From a virus, in IMG/VR virus record IMGVR_UViG_3300031673_000175, positions 1 to 40,663 of that record: 40,663 nucleotides of DNA; one strand, given 5' to 3'. Positions 1,067 through 39,017 of the stretch are shown here, piece after piece (position 1 is the first letter of the stretch; each line of letters opens with the position of its first letter). Below the pieces are notes generated by a model that saw only the letters and a program-made list of their open reading frames with translations, was not told the DNA's origin and did not search any database. The position numbers and the translations under genes were made by a program.

Positions 1067-2125
1067 TCATGACTCCTTGGTTGGATAGTTAACCCAACTG
1101 CCCCACGGCGGTTGAGTGGGCGATACCCAGATAATTCCCGGCTGTGGTGGCCCATACTCGCCACAACCATCGGTGATGTAGAGCGCGATATCCGGCGCGC
1201 GCCGCGCAATCTCGGCCAGTGCCGGCCGGAAATCCGTACCTCCTCCGCCCTTGGCGGCGTACACCAAACTGGCGGCGCACTGCACGTCCTCCACAACAGA
1301 CTGCACGGCGGCATCGGCGTAAATCACATCCAGGCGCGCAAGGCCGGTGACACCCAGCGCCAGCGAGATCGCGATGCGCACATCGGAGTCTCGCATCGAG
1401 CCGGACGTATCCACTGCAATCACGACGTAACCGTCTGGCCGCTCAACCGGCCCTGGCAGCAGCGCACAGCGCCGCGACGGCGGAGCCCACGTCTCGTTGT
1501 CGTAATCCAAGGCCAGTGCGACAACCTGCGATACCACATCTGCCAGGGTTGCGACCGGCTTAGGCTCGGCCAGCGTGCGCGCCAGGGCGGCGGGCAGTGT
1601 ACCCCACCGGCTCTGCGCACGCATCTGGCGCCAGCGCTGCGTCGCTTCCGAGAACGCCTGTGCCGGTGTCCGCCCTGGCTGCGGCGGCGCATCCTCGACA
1701 ACGCCCCACTGCGGCGCAGAGCCCCCAGGCGGCAGCAGATCATATATCTGCTCTGCGTTCATCACAGCCCACTTCGGCGGGCACACCAGGGCGCCGTCAG
1801 GTAGTACGTAGCCTGCGTCTGCGACGTATGGGTTGACCTCGTAATCGCACGCGATGTTCCATCGTCTCATCTCTCGCGTGCCGCGCCGAAGGTGATGGCC
1901 GAGCAAAACATGCAATATCTCGTGGACCCACACGCCCGCGCGCTCCGCGTCGCTCCATGCGGCCACCGCGACAGGATCGTACGCGATACGGCTACCGTCC
2001 GTTCCGCAGGTTCCGAGATCGGCCGCGACGACCAATTCTAGGCTAAGGAGCGCGCGACCGAGATAGGGCGAGTACAGCAAAATATCGTTACGCGCACGCG
2101 TCCACAACGGATGATCGCCAGTCAT
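1067..2125 (-). CDS. Zinc metallopeptidase-like / VWA domain protein (DUF2201-like)
   Basis: 352 residues. The N-terminal half carries a zinc-peptidase signature HEILHVLLGH at residues 68-77, as in VWA-like metallopeptidase (DUF2201) proteins. The C-terminal half is a von Willebrand A-like domain with an intact metal-ion site: DTSGSM at 239-244, Thr297 in GGTDF and Asp319 in YITDG. It overlaps the AAA+ ATPase stop (TGATG); a GTG three bases earlier is an alternative start. MoxR-type ATPases paired with VWA proteins commonly act together in metal insertion or complex remodelling. The phage role is unknown. Confidence 0.88.
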   Translation of the reverse strand: MTGDHPLWTRARNDILLYSPYLGRALLSLELVVAADLGTCGTDGSRIAYDPVAVAAWSDAERAGVWVHEILHVLLGHHLRRGTREMRRWNIACDYEVNPYVADAGYVLPDGALVCPPKWAVMNAEQIYDLLPPGGSAPQWGVVEDAPPQPGRTPAQAFSEATQRWRQMRAQSRWGTLPAALARTLAEPKPVATLADVVSQVVALALDYDNETWAPPSRRCALLPGPVERPDGYVVIAVDTSGSMRDSDVRIAISLALGVTGLARLDVIYADAAVQSVVEDVQCAASLVYAAKGGGGTDFRPALAEIARRAPDIALYITDGCGEYGPPQPGIIWVSPTQPPWGSWVNYPTKES

Positions 2126-3108
2126 CACAGTAGCTCACGATGATCGACTGCCCACCGCTGGAACTCGACTGTCTGTTTCAAGGCAGGCCAAACATCCGCT
2201 GCGCCGCTTACCAAGGCGATTTCCCATCCACCACCAAGCGCGGATGCGAGAGCCAGAACACGGCCCACCTGCTGCTGGACAGCGCGGGCAGCAATTACGG
2301 TGATCGCGTGGAGCAAATCCGGCTTTCCAGCGTATTTTTTGGCGGTTTTTTCTGGCGCGGCCAAAATATCAGTCAGCGACGGCAGTTTTGCGGCACTAGC
2401 TGCATACGCGGACAGATCGCTAGCTGCTGCTTCGCCAATCCAGCCGGCTAACAGCGAGATATCGGAGACGCCACGCTGCATCAGCCGCCCGGCCTGAGCT
2501 AGAGAGCGAGGGGTGCAATAAGCTGCCATCGGCGCGTCGGGCACCGTAGCTGCATAGCAGTCCGGCCTAAATCCGGGGTAAGCGGCGACGGCAGGATGAA
2601 TATCTGGTTGCACAAGCGCCCACTGGCGCCACGCATTGGGGTCAGCGGCAACCTCGCACATCTGCACGCGGCCGACGAGAGCCGCCAGCAGCGGGCGCAC
2701 GCCAGAACGATCCGTCACGCGATTCGTCGCAAGCACGATCAGCACGTCGTCACGCAGTGCCGCGTCGCCCAGGCGGCGTGCCCACACAAGCTGCATCAGC
2801 GCCGCCTGGACAGGCGCTGGGGCCTGGCCTACGTCGTCCAGGAGCAGCACGGCAGGCCTGTCAGACGGCTCGGTCAGGCGCCTCAGCGTCCCGAGAGGCA
2901 GCCAGTGTGCAGCGCCGTCGATCACCGCAGGCAGACCGCGATAATCGACGGATTGTGCGATCACAGGGTGATCCACGACTAGATCGTAGCCGTGATCAGC
3001 GGCCCACGATTCGGTCATTGCAGTTTTGCCGATGCCGGGCGCCCCTATCAGGCACACAGGATTCGAGGAAGACAGGCAGTCTAAAGCGGCTGTGATTGAT
3101 ACAGTCAT
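2125..3108 (-). CDS. MoxR-type AAA+ ATPase
   Basis: 327 residues. Walker A is GAPGIGKT (22-29), Walker B LLLDD (88-92), and a sensor-1-like LATN ends at Asn129. It is probably a ring-forming ATPase that remodels a partner. The adjacent metallopeptidase/VWA protein is the natural partner, because MoxR-VWA pairs are a recurrent arrangement. The ATG at 3108 is chosen because it overlaps the upstream stop (ATGA) and GGAG lies six bases upstream; a TTG at 3120 is less likely. Confidence 0.9.
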   Translation of the reverse strand: MTVSITAALDCLSSSNPVCLIGAPGIGKTAMTESWAADHGYDLVVDHPVIAQSVDYRGLPAVIDGAAHWLPLGTLRRLTEPSDRPAVLLLDDVGQAPAPVQAALMQLVWARRLGDAALRDDVLIVLATNRVTDRSGVRPLLAALVGRVQMCEVAADPNAWRQWALVQPDIHPAVAAYPGFRPDCYAATVPDAPMAAYCTPRSLAQAGRLMQRGVSDISLLAGWIGEAAASDLSAYAASAAKLPSLTDILAAPEKTAKKYAGKPDLLHAITVIAARAVQQQVGRVLALASALGGGWEIALVSGAADVWPALKQTVEFQRWAVDHRELL

Positions 3109-3437
3109 GGTGCTCTCCAAAATTCGGCGCGGCTCTCGGCAGCGCGTTCAGATTCGAGATCGCACGCCTCGGCACAAAAAACGTCAAGACGCGGATGCAG
3201 ATGGCTCACAATTAAGTGCGTGCCGGCCGGCATTTCGTCATCTTCGTCGGGCCAGCACTCGATGCGATACGGCCCCGGCCAATTGTAGCAGTAGCGATTA
3301 CCTACATAGACCTGAGCGAGCGCGAAAAGGGCTTCCCGCTCCGCATCCTCCCAATAGTCGGACTGGACCCAGGTTTCGATAGCTGTCCACCGTTCTTCGC
3401 GTGCGAAGTGGATTTTACGCTGTAACTGCAAGCGCAT
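3105..3437 (-). CDS. Hypothetical acidic protein, 110 aa
   Basis: Starts MRLQLQRKIHFAREERWTAI. Rich in Trp, Tyr and acidic residues (for example ECWPDEDDEMP near residues 60-70). No domain recognised. It overlaps the upstream gene by 23 bases and the ATPase gene by the ATGA at 3105-3108, so it is part of the coupled leftward operon. The ribosome site of the ATPase lies within its last codons. Confidence 0.72.
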   Translation of the reverse strand: MRLQLQRKIHFAREERWTAIETWVQSDYWEDAEREALFALAQVYVGNRYCYNWPGPYRIECWPDEDDEMPAGTHLIVSHLHPRLDVFCAEACDLESERAAESRAEFWRAP

Positions 3438-4000: not shown

Positions 4001-4242
4001 TTCGCCACCCGCGCGCGCTTCGCCTTCTTTGCGGCTTCGTAATCGGCTGCGTCGCGTGCCCATTGGGCAATTCCCCGCTGGCGGTAGAGATCGTGCTGCA
4101 TGGCTTCAAGGTCCGGGTGGGCGTCCCAAGCGGCCTGCCAGCTTTTGGCGGACTCGGGATCGATCTTTTCAAGAGACTGCATCTTGGCGTGCAAATCATC
4201 AATCTTGCGGTCGATTTTGGCGATTTCTTGAACCGGCGTCAT
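3997..4242 (-). CDS. Small coiled-coil protein, 81 aa
   Basis: Starts MTPVQEIAKIDRKIDDLHAK. Heptad-like spacing of Ile/Leu/Met in residues 5-30 suggests a short coiled coil, and the C-terminus is basic (AAKKAKRARVAK). Both ends are ATGA overlaps with neighbours, placing it firmly in the operon. Function unknown. Confidence 0.72.
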   Translation of the reverse strand: MTPVQEIAKIDRKIDDLHAKMQSLEKIDPESAKSWQAAWDAHPDLEAMQHDLYRQRGIAQWARDAADYEAAKKAKRARVAK

Positions 4243-4907
4243 TTCTCAGCTCCTGCCATATTACCAATAGCGATTGCTGCCATGCGTTCGATGTAGTCCA
4301 AGCAAGCGTACGTCTCCGTAGCCTTCCTGGTAGCGGGGTACTCCCTTTCGATATGCTCCCTATAGTCTTCCGTAGTCATGGTACGGCACCCAGCGCGCAC
4401 TAGTATGGCTGCGGACCCTTGAAGGGAGAATGCCAAGAAAGCATAAGGGTCCGTTACCCTGTTACACGTACCTACGTAGGCGTGAAGGGTGAAACCACCA
4501 CACGTCGCACCCGCAAGGTCCGCACCCGCAAGGTTCGCACCCCGAAGGTCCGCATCCCCAAGGTTCGCACGCGCAAGGTTCGCACCCGCAAGGTCCGCAC
4601 CCCGAAGGTCCGCACGCGCAAGGTCCGCACCCGCAAGGTTCGCACCCCGAAGGTCCGCATCCCGAAGGTTCGCACCCGCAAGGCCCGCATCCCCAAGGTT
4701 CGCACGCGCAAGGTACGCACCCGCAAGGTCCGCACCCCGAAGGTCCGCACGCGCAAGGTCCGCACCCGCAAGGTCCGCACCCGCAAGGTTCGCACCCCGA
4801 AGGTCCGCATCCCAAAGGCTTTCCGCCTCCAATGCCACTAGTACCTTTGTGGGGTCCCAGCGTGAAACTATCTTGATTGTCATAGTAGGTTGCTCCTCAT
4901 TGGTCAT
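4239..4907 (-). CDS. Pentapeptide-repeat protein
   Basis: 222 residues. Residues about 33-137 are a run of A-D/N-L-x-x repeats (for example ADLRGANLAGADLAGADL), the signature of a right-handed quadrilateral beta-helix. A C-terminal segment (about 138-222) is non-repetitive and helical. Some members of the family mimic DNA and bind gyrase, others have unrelated roles; neither is shown here. The ATG at 4907 has GGAG eight bases upstream and overlaps the 44-codon gene before it; an internal ATG at codon 9 is possible. The coding DNA is itself a 15-nt repeat. Confidence 0.88.
   Translation of the reverse strand: MTNEEQPTMTIKIVSRWDPTKVLVALEAESLWDADLRGANLAGADLAGADLARADLRGADLAGAYLARANLGDAGLAGANLRDADLRGANLAGADLARADLRGADLAGANLARANLGDADLRGANLAGADLAGATCGGFTLHAYVGTCNRVTDPYAFLAFSLQGSAAILVRAGCRTMTTEDYREHIEREYPATRKATETYACLDYIERMAAIAIGNMAGAEK
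4493..4833. repeat. 15-nt tandem repeat inside pentapeptide gene
   Basis: Units of the type CGCAAGGTCCGCACC repeat with small changes through the pentapeptide region. The other reading frames stay open only because of this periodicity and are shadows. The 15-nt period equals that of the left mini-ORF array. Confidence 0.85.
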
Positions 4908-6000: not shown

Positions 6001-6046
6001 TTGCGTGACGTTACCGGTTGTGTCATTATGGCGGAAAGCTTGGAGG
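6001..6046 (+). promoter_or_regulatory. Candidate late-operon promoter with GTGACGTTAC and RBS
   Basis: TTGCGT (6001-6006) and CATTAT (6024-6029) are 17 bases apart, a weak sigma70-like pair. The shared ten-mer GTGACGTTAC lies at 6005-6014. GGAGG (6042-6046) is the ribosome site of the first late gene. The boxes are far from consensus, so the promoter call is tentative. Confidence 0.4.
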
Positions 6047-6549: not shown

Positions 6550-7194
6550 ATGTCAGAAGCGAAAAGGGTGCGGACAAAGCCGGGCTATAAGCTCAAGAAT
6601 GGCGAGACTCCGCTCATAAACCTGGACCCCGAGAGGAAATACGGTCCGGCGATGTCGCGGCTCACCGATGCGCGCAAGCGGTTCGTACTGGCCTATGTGA
6701 TGAAGGGCGGCCGGAATACCTCGGAATGCGCGCGCTGGGCCGGGTACAAGGACAGCAAAGAGATCAAGAAGACCGCCTATGGTCTGACGCACGATCCTTT
6801 CGTGCTGGAAGCCATCCGGGAAGAGGCGGACATTTTCTTTCGCGGGAGCGTGCTGCGGGCCGGTCATAAGCTGGACGAGCTTCTGGACAGCGATCAACCC
6901 AGGATTGCACTGGAGGCCGCCAAGGAACTGCTGAACCGGGGCGGCATGATCGTGGCGACCCAGCACAATGTGACCGTCGAGCACATAGAGACGCGCTCGA
7001 CCGAGGAGCTTCTGGAGATCGTACGCAAGTTCCAGGCGGATTCGCCGTTGCTGGCGGCTCCTGTGCCGAAACCACGGCAACTCGCCATCGATGCCGAGTT
7101 TACGGTTGTCGAACCGGACGTAGCCCAAGTACGCGAAAACGAACATTCTCAAATGTCAGCGGACGGTGACAGCGAGAAGGGCGAGAACGTATGA
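6550..7194 (+). CDS. terS: Terminase small subunit
   Basis: 214 residues. The N-terminal half has the helix-turn-helix layout of phage terminase small subunits (LTDARKRFVLAYVMKGGRNT, then SECARWAGY, near residues 37-75), used to recognise viral DNA for packaging. A charged C-terminal tail follows. Its stop overlaps the ATG of the large subunit (ATGA), the usual terS-terL arrangement. The ATG at 6550 is preferred; the in-frame extension to 6454 overlaps the previous gene. Confidence 0.85.
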   Translation: MSEAKRVRTKPGYKLKNGETPLINLDPERKYGPAMSRLTDARKRFVLAYVMKGGRNTSECARWAGYKDSKEIKKTAYGLTHDPFVLEAIREEADIFFRGSVLRAGHKLDELLDSDQPRIALEAAKELLNRGGMIVATQHNVTVEHIETRSTEELLEIVRKFQADSPLLAAPVPKPRQLAIDAEFTVVEPDVAQVRENEHSQMSADGDSEKGENV

Positions 7195-8669
7195 CAAAGA
7201 CAAAACTCTCCCACGAGGACGCTCTCGAAGCCGCCAAGGCCGTTGCCGAGATCGAGCGCCGCAAGCGCGAGAAGGCGCTGGAGTTCTATAGACCTTACCC
7301 AAAGCAAATAGAATTTCACAAACTCGGCGCGACGCGACATGAAATTGCTCTCGTCGCAGCGAATCGTGCTGGGAAATCATATTCGGCATCGGCTGAAGTC
7401 GCGATGCACCTTTCTGGACTTTATCCTGATTGGTGGTGTGGAAAACGCTTCGAGAAAGCCACGCGCGGCTGGGCAGCCGGCGCTACGGGAACCGCCGTAC
7501 GCGATATTGCCCAGCGCGCGCTGTTCGGAACGCCCGCCGTCGTGCAGGATCGCGGCACCGGCATGGTTCCCAAATCCTGCGTCAACTGGGACAAGGGCGT
7601 CACGCTGGCCCATGGCTATGCCGGGCTCTACGATACCGTGCAGGTCAAGCACAAATCCGGCGGCATCAGCACTGTCCGCTTCATGACCTATGAGCAGGGC
7701 CGGGAAAAGTGGCAAGGCGAAACGCTAGATTGGTGCTGGTGCGATGAGGAGCCACCCTTCGAACTCTACATCGAAGGGTTGACTCGCCTTGCCACCACGT
7801 CGGGCCTGATGCTCTGTACCTTCACGCCGCTGGCCGGGCGTACCGCTGTCGTCAATCGATTCCTGTCCGAACCTTCGCCGGATCGTGGCTGGGTCGGAAT
7901 GACGCTGGACGACGCCGAGCATATCTCGCCATCCGAGCGCGAACGCATCGTCGCCAGCTACCCGGCCTATCTGCGCGCCGCCAAAGCCCGTGGCGAACCC
8001 GCCATGGGTATTGGCCGTGTCTTCGAAACCGACGAAGATGTCATCACGGAAAAATCCATCTCGCCCGTGCCGCCGGAATGGCGCAAGCTCTGGGCCATCG
8101 ACATCGGCGTCGAACATCCCTTCGCCGCTGTGCTTCTGGCCTGGGACGCGGATTCGGACTGCATCCATGTCCTGCAAGCCTTCAAGATGCGCGAGTCCCG
8201 CCCCATCGATCATGCCAGCGCCATGAAACCCTGGGGCCGGGACATTCCCGTAGCATGGCCCCATGACGGCCATATCCGCGAGCGCGGCTCCGTGCAGCCC
8301 GTGATGCGTCTCTACAAGGACGCGGGGCTGCGCATCCTGCCATCGCACGCTGCCTTCCCCGATGGCTCTATCTCGACAGAGGCGGGCATCCTCGCCATGG
8401 ATGACCGCATGAAGTCCAATCGCTTCAAGGTCGCCTCGCATCTGGGAGAATGGCTGGAAGAGTACCGGCATTATCATAGGCGGCCGAAATCCGACGGCAG
8501 TTCCGAGATCGTCAAGGAACACGATGACTTGATGAGCGCCACCAGAATCGGTGTCATGGCGATCAGATATGCCCGTTCCGTGGATGCTGGCATGACGGCA
8601 CGTGAGGGCCGCAGTACGGGCATGGCGAAAGATGTAGACTTCGACGTACTCAACGTCAGCGAGGGGTAA
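7191..8669 (+). CDS. terL: Terminase large subunit
   Basis: 492 residues. ATPase motor: Walker A-like ANRAGKS at 57-63 and Walker B LDWCWCDE at about 179-186. C-terminal RNase H-like nuclease: Asp304 in WAIDIG and a late acidic pair in EHDDLM (about 445-446). It pumps DNA into the procapsid and cuts the concatemer. The length fits podovirus terminases. It follows terS with an ATGA overlap. No cos site was identified, so the packaging mode is unknown. Confidence 0.95.
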   Translation: MTKTKLSHEDALEAAKAVAEIERRKREKALEFYRPYPKQIEFHKLGATRHEIALVAANRAGKSYSASAEVAMHLSGLYPDWWCGKRFEKATRGWAAGATGTAVRDIAQRALFGTPAVVQDRGTGMVPKSCVNWDKGVTLAHGYAGLYDTVQVKHKSGGISTVRFMTYEQGREKWQGETLDWCWCDEEPPFELYIEGLTRLATTSGLMLCTFTPLAGRTAVVNRFLSEPSPDRGWVGMTLDDAEHISPSERERIVASYPAYLRAAKARGEPAMGIGRVFETDEDVITEKSISPVPPEWRKLWAIDIGVEHPFAAVLLAWDADSDCIHVLQAFKMRESRPIDHASAMKPWGRDIPVAWPHDGHIRERGSVQPVMRLYKDAGLRILPSHAAFPDGSISTEAGILAMDDRMKSNRFKVASHLGEWLEEYRHYHRRPKSDGSSEIVKEHDDLMSATRIGVMAIRYARSVDAGMTAREGRSTGMAKDVDFDVLNVSEG

Positions 8670-11019: not shown

Positions 11020-11214
11020 GTGAGCCTTGCGCCTTCTACCCCCACATCCGCCGTGACCGACCTTGGCCTCGGCGGCTCCATGACCCCGGAACAGGAAGCC
11101 GAGCGGCGTAAGAAGCTCATGGCTGCGGCCGGCGGCAACCCGCTCCAGCGCTACGGCGAGGCCGCCATGAGCCTGCTTGGCTCGCAGGCGCCGTCCTATG
11201 GCGCGCGCCTCTGA
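11020..11214 (+). CDS. Small protein before portal, 64 aa
   Basis: GTG start 17 bases after the third palindromic box. Begins MSLAPSTPTSAVTDLGLGGS, with a conserved-looking charged helix MTPEQEAERRKKLMAAAGG, then NPLQRYGEAAMSLLG. Its stop overlaps the portal ATG (TGATG). Probably a small head-associated protein; the function is not known. Confidence 0.6.
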   Translation: MSLAPSTPTSAVTDLGLGGSMTPEQEAERRKKLMAAAGGNPLQRYGEAAMSLLGSQAPSYGARL

Positions 11215-12944
11215 TGGCAGACAAAGCCGCCCCCAAAACGGTCGCTGAGACGGCTCGGGAAATGACCATCGTGGAGGAAAGCCTCCGCGAATTTTCTGAG
11301 TTGCAGGCCTATCGCTCTCAACGGGCGCTGCAATGGGAAGAATCGGCCTCCTTGCTGATGCCGGTCATGAAAAATACGTTCTATTTCAGCAATTACAATT
11401 TCCCAGGAATCAAAAAAACACAACTCCAGGTCGATTCCACCGCCATGCTGGCGAACTGGAAATTCGCTGCGATCTGCGACGCCATCATCACGCCGTTCTC
11501 CAGCCAGTGGCACGCGCTGTCGTCGCCCGACCCGGAAATCAGCAAGGATCGCCAGTCCCGGCTTTATTTCGAGCGCGTCAGCCATATCCTGGCCGAAATG
11601 CGCAATGCTCCGACGGCGAGTTTCCGGCGCAACAACCAGACCATCTACCAGATGATAGGGGCTTTCGGGAACGCCCCGATGTTCGTAGATCAACTGGCCG
11701 ACCCGTTCGGGCGCCCAGCGCGCGGCATCCGCTACAAGGCCGTACCCGTCGGCCAAGTCTTCATCCGCGAGAACCATCAGGGCAATATCGACGGCTTCTG
11801 CCGCTGGTTCCGGCTCACCGGCTCGCAGGCCGTCAAGCAGTTCGGGGACGTAGTGCCGGAGGGCATCCGCAAGGCCGCCGAGATCGGTTCGCAGGCGCCC
11901 TTCGATTTCCTGCACCGTGTCGTTCCGAACGGTGAATATGATCCGCAGCGGCGTGACAGCAAGGGCAAGCCGTACGCCAGCTACTACATCAGCCTGACCG
12001 GGAAAACCCTGCTTTCCGAGGGCGGCTACCGTGTTTTCCCGATGCCCTATTGCCGCTACTCGCAGAACCCGGAAGACCCCTATTCGGACGGCCCGGCCCA
12101 ACTTGTGCTTCCGACGCTCAAGAGCCTCAACGCCGAGAAGAACATGTTCCTCAAGGTCGGCCACCGCACGGCCGATCCGATCCTGCTAGGGCCGGACGAC
12201 GGCCTTGTCGATCCGTCCCTGCGGCCGGGCGCCTACAATCGCGGCGGCGTCAGCCCCGAGGGCAAGCCCCTCGTTATCCCGCTTTCCTACGGCAGCCTTC
12301 CGATCACCAAGGAAATGATGGACGAGGAACGCGCCATCGTCGGGGATGCCTTCCTTACCAGCATCTTCTCTGCCCTGGTCGAGAATCCTCAGATGACGGC
12401 GACCCAGGTGGTCGAACTCATCAACCAGAAGGGCATTTTCCTCGCCCCCATGGCGGGCTCTATGGCCCCGGACTATCTGGGATCCTTGATCGAGCGTGAG
12501 ATCGATATCGCCGCCGATCTCGGCTTCCTGCCGCCCATGCCGCCGCTGCTTCAAGAAGCGCGCGGCCAATACAAGGTCGAGTATACCTCGCCGTTGTTCA
12601 AGGCCGCCCGTGCCGGAGACGCGGCTGGCTTCCTGCGCACCGTCGAGTCCGCGCTTGAAGTCGCCGGCCAAATGCAGGACCAATCTATCCTCGATTCGTT
12701 CGACTTCGAGACAGCCATCCCAGCCATCGCGGACATCCAGTCCGTGCCGGTGTCATGGATGGCATCGCCCGATCAGATCGCGGCCAAGCGTCAGGCCCGC
12801 GCGCAGGCGCAACAGCAGCAGCAGCAGGTCCAAGCCCTTCCGGCTCAAGCGGCCATGCTGAAAGCCCGTGCGGCCGTCGCCAAACAGGGCGGTGCACAGA
12901 TCGGCGGCCAGCCCGGCGGCCCACAGCAGGCGCCCCAGCAATGA
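11214..12944 (+). CDS. Portal (head-tail connector) protein
   Basis: 576 residues, matching the size and position (after terminase, before scaffold and capsid) of T7-type head-tail connectors, which form the dodecameric portal for DNA entry and tail attachment. Typical elements are an N-terminal helical region, the NNQTIYQMIGAFGNAPMFVD segment near residues 140-160, and a Gln-rich C-terminal tail (QAQQQQQQVQALPAQ). The ATG overlaps the upstream stop, and its own stop overlaps the next ATG. Confidence 0.88.
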   Translation: MADKAAPKTVAETAREMTIVEESLREFSELQAYRSQRALQWEESASLLMPVMKNTFYFSNYNFPGIKKTQLQVDSTAMLANWKFAAICDAIITPFSSQWHALSSPDPEISKDRQSRLYFERVSHILAEMRNAPTASFRRNNQTIYQMIGAFGNAPMFVDQLADPFGRPARGIRYKAVPVGQVFIRENHQGNIDGFCRWFRLTGSQAVKQFGDVVPEGIRKAAEIGSQAPFDFLHRVVPNGEYDPQRRDSKGKPYASYYISLTGKTLLSEGGYRVFPMPYCRYSQNPEDPYSDGPAQLVLPTLKSLNAEKNMFLKVGHRTADPILLGPDDGLVDPSLRPGAYNRGGVSPEGKPLVIPLSYGSLPITKEMMDEERAIVGDAFLTSIFSALVENPQMTATQVVELINQKGIFLAPMAGSMAPDYLGSLIEREIDIAADLGFLPPMPPLLQEARGQYKVEYTSPLFKAARAGDAAGFLRTVESALEVAGQMQDQSILDSFDFETAIPAIADIQSVPVSWMASPDQIAAKRQARAQAQQQQQQVQALPAQAAMLKARAAVAKQGGAQIGGQPGGPQQAPQQ

Positions 12945-14286: not shown

Positions 14287-14469
14287 ATGGCGAGCAAGAA
14301 ACGGTGGATTCAGGGGGCGATCAAGCATCCGGGAGTCGAGAAGAAAGCGGCTGCCGCTGCGGGCGAATCAACGCATCAGTACATGATGGAGCACGAGAAC
14401 GCCCCCGGCAAATCCGGTGCACGAGCACGCCTCGGGCTTCGTCTCTCGGCCATGGCGAAGCGTAAATAA
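14287..14469 (+). CDS. Small basic conserved-type phage protein, 60 aa
   Basis: Starts MASKKRWIQGAIKHPGVEKK. This N-terminal style (KRWIQxAIKxPG) is a recurring small phage protein found near structural genes, role unknown. GGGAGAAG precedes the ATG. It is followed by the hairpin/terminator at 14465-14510, so it is the last gene of this transcript. Confidence 0.75.
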   Translation: MASKKRWIQGAIKHPGVEKKAAAAAGESTHQYMMEHENAPGKSGARARLGLRLSAMAKRK

Positions 14470-14510
14470 AGCGAAAGCCGGTTCGCTTTATTAGCCGAAA
14501 GTTCGGTTTT
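14465..14510 (+). terminator. Hairpins and T-run between scaffold block and capsid gene
   Basis: A perfect 11-bp inverted repeat (AATAAAGCGAA, six-base loop, TTCGCTTTATT) at 14465-14492 is followed by a short hairpin CCGAAAGTTCGG (14495-14506) and TTTT. The second part looks like a rho-independent terminator, probably attenuating rather than absolute. Confidence 0.65.
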
Positions 14511-14586: not shown

Positions 14587-14602
14587 TGTTTCACGTGAAA
14601 CA
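14587..14602. other. parS-like ParB-binding site, perfect consensus
   Basis: TGTTTCACGTGAAACA is a perfect 16-bp palindrome identical to the canonical bacterial chromosomal parS, bound by ParB/Spo0J. It lies in the non-coding leader between the terminator and the major capsid gene. No parA or parB gene is in the window, so any ParB would come from the host. Confidence 0.85.
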
Positions 14603-14607
14603 CCAAG

Positions 14608-14637
14608 TTGACACTGCGTCATTTTTCTGAGCATCAT
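14608..14637 (+). promoter_or_regulatory. Capsid-gene promoter candidate within TGAC-N5-GTCA box
   Basis: TTGACA (14608-14613) is a perfect -35 box and overlaps the palindrome TGACACTGCGTCA (14609-14621). CATCAT (14632-14637) lies 18 bases downstream as a possible -10. A regulator bound to the palindrome would cover the -35 box. It is the first promoter-like signal after the terminator. Confidence 0.5.
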
Positions 14638-14760
14638 AGATTCATCGGGCAACCGATTCGCTCCCACACCCGCACGTCGCGGCGGTGGCGACTAGAGCGG
14701 CCTCCCTCGGGGACACGGCCAACAGCAGGTCCGTAAACCCAACGAGGGATTGCCCCGCTC

Positions 14761-15684
14761 ATGGCCGACGCATACGAAATTGCCCTTGCCGAGACTCGCT
14801 TCTCGCAGATGCTGGAACTGGCGCTTCAGCAAATGGGCTCCAAGCTTCGCGGCACCGTTCGCGAGCAGGCGATTACCGGCGCCAAGCTGATGTCCCCGAT
14901 CCAGCAGATCGAACCCGTCCAGATGAAGGCGGTTACGGCGCGATTCGCGGACAAGAACTACGACGCCAACCAGTACACCCGCCGTTGGGTTGCGCCTACC
15001 GACTGGACCGGCGATACCCTGATCGACACCTTCGACCTGCTCAAGACGCAGATCGACCCGAAAGGCGAGACGGTGCGGTCGTGGGCCGAGGCGGCTGGCC
15101 GCACCTTCGATGACACTCTCATCGCGGCTGCGACCGGGACCAATTCCATCGGCACCGACGCCAACTCGCTGTCGTCGGAAACCTTCGACACCACGAAGTT
15201 CCAGGTCAGTGTGGACTTCGGCGGCACGGCTTCGGGCGCGCTCGTTGCCAAGCTGATCGAAGGCCGGCGCATCCTGCGTCATTACCACGTCGATCTGGAG
15301 GTTGAGCCCCCGACCTGGATCATCGGTTCGACCCAGGAAGCCGACCTGCTCAAACAGTCGCAGGTGTCGTCCAGCGAATTCAATCGCAACGGCGGCGTCG
15401 TGGAGAACGGCACCGTGACGCGGCTCTACGGCTGCAACATCAAGGTCATGGAGCGCCTCCCCGTCGTGACCACCAATACCCGTGGCACGCTGCTCTACGT
15501 CAAGAGCGGCCTCGTCCTCGGCATGTGGCAGGACATCAAGACGCAGATCGCCCAGATTTTCACCAAGGAGGGCAATCCGTGGAACGTTTCCACGGTGCTG
15601 TCGCACGGCGCGACGCGGACCCGTCCCGGCAAGGTCGTGCAGATTCTCTGCCACGATACCGCCGGCGCCGACATCACGCCGTAA
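14761..15684 (+). CDS. Major capsid protein
   Basis: 307 residues. Starts MADAYEIALAETRFSQMLEL. The position after portal and scaffold, the length, and the mixed alpha/beta composition fit an HK97-fold major capsid protein of podoviruses. Elements such as DWTGDTLIDTFDLLKTQIDP and GRTFDDTLIAAATG resemble the P-domain helix and nearby loops of such capsids. A leader of about 120 bases without genes precedes it. No delta-domain or protease site could be seen. Confidence 0.82.
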   Translation: MADAYEIALAETRFSQMLELALQQMGSKLRGTVREQAITGAKLMSPIQQIEPVQMKAVTARFADKNYDANQYTRRWVAPTDWTGDTLIDTFDLLKTQIDPKGETVRSWAEAAGRTFDDTLIAAATGTNSIGTDANSLSSETFDTTKFQVSVDFGGTASGALVAKLIEGRRILRHYHVDLEVEPPTWIIGSTQEADLLKQSQVSSSEFNRNGGVVENGTVTRLYGCNIKVMERLPVVTTNTRGTLLYVKSGLVLGMWQDIKTQIAQIFTKEGNPWNVSTVLSHGATRTRPGKVVQILCHDTAGADITP

Positions 15685-38181: not shown

Positions 38182-38484
38182 GTGGGAAAGTTCAGCCGCA
38201 GCAAGGGCAAAAGGTTTGAGACGGAAATCGTCCACCGGTTGAAGGATGGCGGCCTTCCTGCCGAGCGTGTACCGCTCTCGGGCGGCGCGGGCGGATCGTT
38301 TACCGGCGACGTGATCTTTCGGCATAACGGCGCTGATCTTAAGCTCGAAGCCAAAAAGCGCGCCACCGGCTTCACGCAGATTTACCAGTGGATAATCGGG
38401 AACTACGGCTTGGTGATCGGCCGCGACCGCAGCGAGCCGTTGGTCGTGCTCCGTCTTCAGGATTTCGTGAGGCTGCTGAAATGA
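38182..38484 (+). CDS. Holliday-junction-resolvase-like PDDEXK nuclease
   Basis: 100 residues. The layout RSKGKRFETEIVHRLKDGG, GDVIFRHNGADLKLEAKKR (Glu13, Asp43, Glu56, Lys58) fits small Hjc-type or VRR-type nucleases. It may resolve recombination intermediates produced by the neighbouring RecE/RecT module. GTG start with GGAGG upstream; the stop overlaps the methylase ATG. Confidence 0.8.
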   Translation: MGKFSRSKGKRFETEIVHRLKDGGLPAERVPLSGGAGGSFTGDVIFRHNGADLKLEAKKRATGFTQIYQWIIGNYGLVIGRDRSEPLVVLRLQDFVRLLK

Positions 38485-39017
38485 CCCGATACGGCGCCAT
38501 GCTTTGCGATCCGCCGTGGGCGTTCCGTACCTACAGCAAGAAGGATGTGACGCCGCATCGCAAGACCGTCGATCATTATACGACCATGGGCTTGCCGGCA
38601 CTCGAACGCATTCCTGTGCGTGACTGGGCCGCGCGGGACTGCGCGCTGTTTCTGTGGGCCGTAGACAGTCATCTCGACCAAGCTATTGCGCTCGGTCAGA
38701 CATGGGGATTTGAGTACAAGACAATCGCTTTCGTGTGGACCAAAGGCCACATCGGCATGGGCTATTGGACGCGGAAACAGGCGGAAATTTGCCTGTTATT
38801 CACGCGCGGAAAGCCGAAGCGCAAATCCTGCGGCGTGCCCCAGCATATCGCTGCGCCGCGCCGCGAACATAGCCGCAAACCCGACGAAATTTACACGCGG
38901 ATCGAGGGGCTCGTGAATGGTCCATATCTCGAAATGTTCGCCCGCCAGCGGTGGCTGCGCTGGGATCAATGGGGAAACGAAGTAGACCGGTTCGCGCCGG
39001 AATCGATATCCCCGTAA
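38481..39017 (+). CDS. MT-A70-family adenine methyltransferase
   Basis: 178 residues. DPPW at 10-13 is the catalytic motif of MT-A70-type N6-adenine methylases, followed by IRAC-like elements absent from other methylase classes; the tail (EMFARQRWLRWDQWGNEVDR) matches phage members. It probably protects phage DNA from restriction. It overlaps the preceding nuclease gene by ATGA. Confidence 0.88.
   Translation: MTRYGAMLCDPPWAFRTYSKKDVTPHRKTVDHYTTMGLPALERIPVRDWAARDCALFLWAVDSHLDQAIALGQTWGFEYKTIAFVWTKGHIGMGYWTRKQAEICLLFTRGKPKRKSCGVPQHIAAPRREHSRKPDEIYTRIEGLVNGPYLEMFARQRWLRWDQWGNEVDRFAPESISP

Follow-up and report, generated by a model that had tools for sequence, protein, structure and literature searches.

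Introduction

ParB-CTP clamps have been well studied on chromosomes and plasmids. It is already established that mobile DNA can hijack ParB; the parS mimics of SGI1 hijack the ParABS system of IncC plasmids, which stabilizes SGI1 and displaces the plasmid (PMC10954446). It is also established that some phages carry parABS of their own (PMC7157519). On chromosomes, the parS of Pseudomonas aeruginosa is TGTTCCAC/GTGGAACA (PMC4368675), ParB of Caulobacter is reported to spread as far as approximately 2 kb away from a single parS (PMC5815017), and promoters beside the intergenic sites parS3 and parS4 are repressed by ParB in P. aeruginosa (PMC5521831). Among open-access full texts, we found no report of phages that use the chromosomal ParB of their host via parS.

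Here we describe a chromosomal-type parS upstream of the major capsid gene of a virus. The stretch of DNA that was analysed, referred to below as the window, is the 40,663-bp IMG/VR record IMGVR_UViG_3300031673_000175. We compared this locus with its relatives, with parS-bearing loci from viral collections, and with the systems described above.

Results

A single perfect parS in the window

Positions 14587–14602 read TGTTTCACGTGAAACA, a 16-bp inverted repeat that matches the canonical chromosomal-type parS at 16 of 16 positions, as a first-pass annotation of the window had claimed. It is the only copy at one mismatch or fewer across the full 40,663-bp virus record. The annotation had also stated that such a site should occur far less than once by chance, and this agrees with the 4.8e-6 exact copies of TGTTTCACGTGAAACA expected from a first-order Markov model of the window. 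Dinucleotide shuffles contained a mean of 0.07 matches, even allowing three mismatches. The site is also the sole perfect 16-bp palindrome of the window, where 0.6 are expected for palindromes of any sequence. There was no clear excess of GTTTCAC half-sites in the window (7 versus 3.8 expected, two of the seven being parS itself). The features around the site are as follows.

14465–14492, plus strand: terminator-like hairpin with an 11-bp stem, a 6-nt loop and no T-run (RNA fold –13 kcal/mol, z = –2.6)
14587–14602, no strand assigned: proposed host-ParB nucleation site (perfect parS palindrome TGTTTCACGTGAAACA; exact match, single copy)
14608–14637, plus strand: sigma-70-like capsid promoter, with TTGACA at 14608–14613 and a weak –10 CATCAT at 14632–14637 (consensus scan; TTGACA/T of relatives)
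14699–14720, plus strand: conserved capsid-leader motif GGCCyCCN..GGAYACGGCC (alignment of the upstream regions of relatives)
14761–15684, plus strand: major capsid protein gene (phrog_3437 major head protein, E = 7e-47; homologues in Pelagibacter phage HTVC010P and relatives)

The palindrome lies within the 291-bp gap between the end of a small open reading frame (14469) and the start of the major capsid gene (14761). Just 5 bp separate it from the downstream –35 box of the capsid promoter, which is located between parS and the capsid gene and has a perfect –35 and a poor –10. The site had previously been placed between a terminator and a promoter. The promoter part of this description stands; the hairpin at 14465–14492 overlaps the end of the upstream open reading frame and has no T-run, so it is terminator-like only. 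Most close relatives have the leader motif GGCCCC..GGATACGGCC in common between the promoter and the capsid start, and this is possibly a leader RNA element. An Rfam search, which included the motif, gave no match. The motif has an equivalent location in the relatives L122, L126, L136, L144, L147 and others, and a short GGCC/GGCC hairpin is possible.

Gene content and lifestyle of the phage

Genes for capsid, portal, terminase, tail, RecT and exonuclease VIII identify the virus as a podovirus, whose distant relatives include Pelagibacter phage HTVC010P and its allies. Two further structural genes of the window are as follows.

7191–8669, plus strand: terminase large subunit (phrog_2, E = 3e-26)
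11214–12944, plus strand: portal / head-tail adaptor protein (phrog_332, E = 5e-100)

Three parS-bearing viral loci, L021, L022 and L091, carry distant homologues of the window terL (tblastn, 31–38% identity).

Domain searches detected neither ParB_N nor HTH_ParB in the window record, and AAA_31/ParA was likewise absent from it, which confirms the earlier statement that this phage has no ParA or ParB. The window thus encodes neither protein of a ParABS-carrying phage-plasmid, and the site was not classed as a resident ParABS centromere because the record is without ParB_N or HTH_ParB. No tyrosine integrase was detected in the record, the window has no tRNAs, and no regulator candidate was seen in it. 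The capsid profile recovered 52 viral relatives and no prophage relatives in bacterial genomes, in a scan that needs exact peptide words and is thus limited in sensitivity. This fits a lytic lineage, short of proof because a scan of this kind can miss bacterial relatives, and we consider the lineage to be probably lytic. The idea that parS segregates an extrachromosomal prophage, which had been raised before, is unsupported, there being no integrase, no par genes and no prophage relative by capsid profile.

A scan with the MT-A70 methyltransferase gene matched many taxa, with Rhizobiales/Alphaproteobacteria on top, which gives a weak hint that the host may be an alphaproteobacterium. The methyltransferase (38388–39014) has its closest bacterial matches in Rhizobiales and is 61% identical to positions 6023–6517 of L062, another parS-bearing viral contig. 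Host inference from the exonuclease and DUF2201 homologues was uninformative, the hosts being mixed. The minus strand of the window also encodes a pair consisting of a DUF2201 metallopeptidase/VWA-like protein and an AAA ATPase (1067–3120), the DUF2201 protein having distant homologues in 243 phage records, and a pentapeptide-repeat protein (4239–4907).

The capsid promoter in relatives of the phage

Almost every close relative (capsid identity of 45% or more) has TTGACA/T 73–269 bp upstream of its capsid gene, and this box is usually followed at 17 bp by a TANNNT-like –10. By contrast, none of the 54 capsid-defined relatives (29–53% capsid identity) has parS at two or fewer mismatches near the capsid gene. 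When 20 relative records were scanned in full, one 2-mismatch match to parS was found, away from the capsid gene. The 54 relatives have the promoter without parS, so the promoter does not need parS. Because parS is absent from relatives that share the promoter, the promoter looks ancestral and parS looks to have been gained in the lineage of the window.

The first-pass annotation had named conservation in related phages as a check on the site, and absence of the palindrome from close relatives as counting against it. The outcome was negative for the 54 relatives, and since there is no parS near their capsid genes, conservation gives the site no support in the capsid-defined family. These relatives are distant, so we interpret the absence of parS as a gain in one lineage rather than as a lack of function. 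Several relatives, for example L132, L147 and L172, have a different inverted repeat upstream of the capsid gene, and its loop contains or adjoins the –35 box. The capsid promoter of these relatives thus overlaps a terminator- or operator-like hairpin.

Enrichment of parS in viral collections

At least 120 parS loci are present in IMG/VR, compared with 1, 4 and 9 loci for three control palindromes with the base composition of parS. The control with 9 loci is GTTTTCACGTGAAAAC, a near-identical palindrome that keeps the TTCACGTGAA core. A scan of IMG/VR for parS followed by TTGACA returned 42 loci, 2 of which were shared with the 120 parS loci listed, and capture-recapture puts the total in IMG/VR at very roughly 2,500 parS loci. 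Among GenBank phages, a doubled-parS BLAST query matched 213 records versus 1 for a doubled control; these counts cover a subset, as BLAST needs slightly more than 16 matching bases, with limits that are equal for parS and control, and some of the records (e.g. Listeria contigs) may hold chromosomal DNA while many are isolated phages. There is usually one parS per fetched locus. These counts place the frequency of parS in viral DNA far above chance expectation. L199 (PQ006099.1) and other bajarodino inovirus records are filamentous phages of approximately 6 kb with several parS-like matches each.

Placement of parS in viral genomes

The palindrome was outside any open reading frame of at least 40 amino acids in 33% of cases, compared with 6.5% of random positions, a difference of approximately fivefold. 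About half of the parS loci contain a terL recognized by a terminase HMM. In 15 loci parS is 2–135 bp upstream of terL, and most of these are one lineage. Within this terL-linked lineage TerL identity ranges from 59% to 92%, and the flanks differ more than parS does. The loci were chosen for having parS, so what this shows is a constant position within the lineage and not the fraction of it that has parS. Loci with a terL of this lineage (phrog_38) and parS 17–135 bp upstream are L019, L027, L029, L042, L066, L083, L093, L097, L101, L111, L119 and L120. In L097, a second, Pseudomonas-type copy (TGTTCCACGTGGAACA) adjoins parS.

The arrangement seen in the window recurs in unrelated viruses. In 33 distinct loci, parS is followed after 2–14 bp by TTGACA, and 16 of these have TANNNT at the correct spacing versus 3 and 1 at wrong spacings. 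Around the 120 parS loci listed, which form an unbiased sample, promoters showed no positional enrichment, and promoter adjacency is therefore a recurrent minority layout and not the rule. In named phages, parS is often found among small genes of unknown function. With such settings and no promoter preference, control of a late promoter cannot be the general role of parS. In L288, L290, L297 and L316, which are phage genomes of 138–145 kb, exactly 14 bp separate parS from a sigma-70-like promoter downstream, although the flanks differ.

ParB-less carriers and host-type variants

Of the 47 parS-bearing viral records with a length of at least 18 kb, some of which are fragments, 3 have ParB_N above the family cut-off; a fourth match fell below it. 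ParB_N was found in none of 12 named parS phages, whose whole records were searched and which include lytic Herelleviridae (PatrickStar, DSS3P8, Bacchae, Woes, CMP1, OneinaGillian, JasmineDragon, BUCT627, vB_BcoS-136, bajarodino virus 69, Voltaire and Lpa804). The parS match in these 12 phages is mostly in a short intergenic gap, OneinaGillian excepted, and a few of the matches are imperfect. The window also carries parS without parAB of its own, as an SGI1-like mimic does.

The P. aeruginosa-type parS, TGTTCCACGTGGAACA, occurs in 99 phage records, including, among the matches listed, 12 from Pseudomonas, 13 from Stenotrophomonas and 26 from Mycobacterium phages. Among the matches listed, the Bacillus-type TGTTTCAC is mostly in phages of Microbacterium, Listeria, Gordonia, Lactobacillus, Arthrobacter and Bacillus. 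The Bacillus type, to which the site of the window belongs, predominates in Gram-positive phages and the Pseudomonas type occurs in Pseudomonas and Stenotrophomonas phages, an agreement with host type that is a trend, because it comes from the matches listed and not from a full host census. This agreement was seen across GenBank phages. In the Klebsiella jumbo phages (RaK2 and relatives), Pseudomonas-type parS is inside coding regions. Klebsiella hosts are not known to have a chromosomal ParB, and these copies are a possible chance counter-example to host matching.

Together, the viral enrichment, the ParB-less carriers and the host-type variants lend indirect, sequence-based support to the earlier proposal that host ParB is the likely ligand, and they suggest that many phages borrow a host chromosome-segregation protein. 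From the same comparisons, the palindrome of the window is probably a functional, cis-acting parS for host ParB on a virus that has no ParB.

Discussion

We consider it very likely that host ParB binds 14587–14602, and likely that ParB clamps spread from there over flanking phage DNA. In the mechanism we favour, host ParB-CTP would load at the palindrome and the clamps would slide over the flanking 1–2 kb. They would thereby cover the capsid promoter, which is 5 bp from the palindrome, with the ParB dimer on parS sitting at the upstream edge of this promoter. Of the possible consequences, the likeliest would be repression of late (capsid) transcription for as long as the ParB pool is divided among few phage genomes. 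Once replication has raised the number of sites, ParB per site would fall and repression would lift late in infection, although such titration is speculative. In addition, ParA or SMC may be recruited to the phage DNA by the bound ParB. The suggestion, made previously, that ParB spreading affects late transcription appears plausible because P. aeruginosa ParB represses promoters at parS3/parS4 (PMC5521831); in addition, the site abuts a promoter that is conserved in the family, and the layout recurs in unrelated viruses. That the transcriptional effect is the main function of parS is offered tentatively; recruitment of ParA or SMC and titration of ParB are close rivals.

Host ParB could bring ParA and/or SMC so that phage genomes are positioned, separated, compacted or kept in dividing cells as a carrier state, with any effect on transcription being incidental. 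On chromosomes and plasmids parS is known to serve in this way, and most phages have no fixed spacing between parS and a gene, as would be the case for a loading site and unlike an operator. However, with no integrase, par genes or prophage relatives long-term maintenance is unlikely, and the benefit to a lytic phage is not evident, so we view recruitment as the main function as somewhat unlikely. The position of parS also varies widely among phages, as it would if position were irrelevant and the replicating copies served as a decoy that titrates host ParB and disturbs segregation or division. A strong parS on a plasmid cuts Caulobacter viability 100–1000-fold (PMC5815017) and the SGI1 mimics destabilize their helper plasmid (PMC10954446), but there is usually one site per fetched locus, where several would serve a decoy better, and we regard this as unlikely.

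The palindrome is just upstream of a –35 box, and L132, L147 and L172 have other inverted repeats that overlap the capsid promoter, which is what would be seen if the site served as the operator of some regulator, either phage-encoded or an unrelated one of the host, and its likeness to parS were fortuitous. This is improbable; it leaves unexplained both the enrichment of the exact 16-mer over GTTTTCACGTGAAAAC (9 loci) and the Pseudomonas-type variant in Pseudomonas phages, and no regulator candidate was seen in the window. The absence of conservation among relatives is compatible with a perfect palindrome that arose at random where an intergenic gap tolerates it, yet about 5e-6 copies are expected in the window, and control palindromes occur 1–9 times in the whole viral collection versus at least 120 times for parS. 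From these counts, chance accounts for a few per cent of viral parS at most, and we consider it highly improbable as the origin of this site.

For phages more widely, we raise as a tentative possibility that many unrelated lytic phages whose hosts have ParB carry host-matched parS and use host ParB as an intracellular signal or as a titration target. As a signal, ParB could for example let late promoters sense how many phage genomes are present. If true, exploitation of the host segregation machinery would be a general part of phage biology that has largely escaped notice, and it would link chromosome segregation with phage gene timing or host takeover. The collection-wide counts turn one palindrome into a general claim that is testable in cultured phages, for which Lactobacillus plantarum Herelleviridae, Ruegeria phage DSS3P8, and Gordonia and Clavibacter phages are candidates.

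Comparison with known systems

As proposed here, the phage resembles SGI1 in being a mobile element with parS-like sequence that recruits the ParB of another replicon. The partner of SGI1 is a helper plasmid, whereas for the window the proposed partner is the host chromosome and the element is a phage, probably lytic, whose one site adjoins a late promoter. The chromosomal parS sites of P. aeruginosa (PMC4368675) and Caulobacter (PMC5815017) are the same type of 16-bp palindrome, but they are clustered near the origin of the replicon that encodes ParB, whereas the window has a single site on a virus without ParB. The phage-plasmids RedRock and Miko (PMC7157519) also have a centromere-like site on phage DNA. 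By contrast with the window, which has neither par gene, they encode their own ParA and ParB and are extrachromosomal prophages, and the RedRock centromere consists of arrays of short direct repeats (PMC7157519), unlike the single palindrome described here. The P. aeruginosa sites parS3 and parS4 differ in that they are at chromosomal genes with no phage involved, and resemble the proposed arrangement in that ParB beside a promoter changes its output at the native ParB level (PMC5521831).
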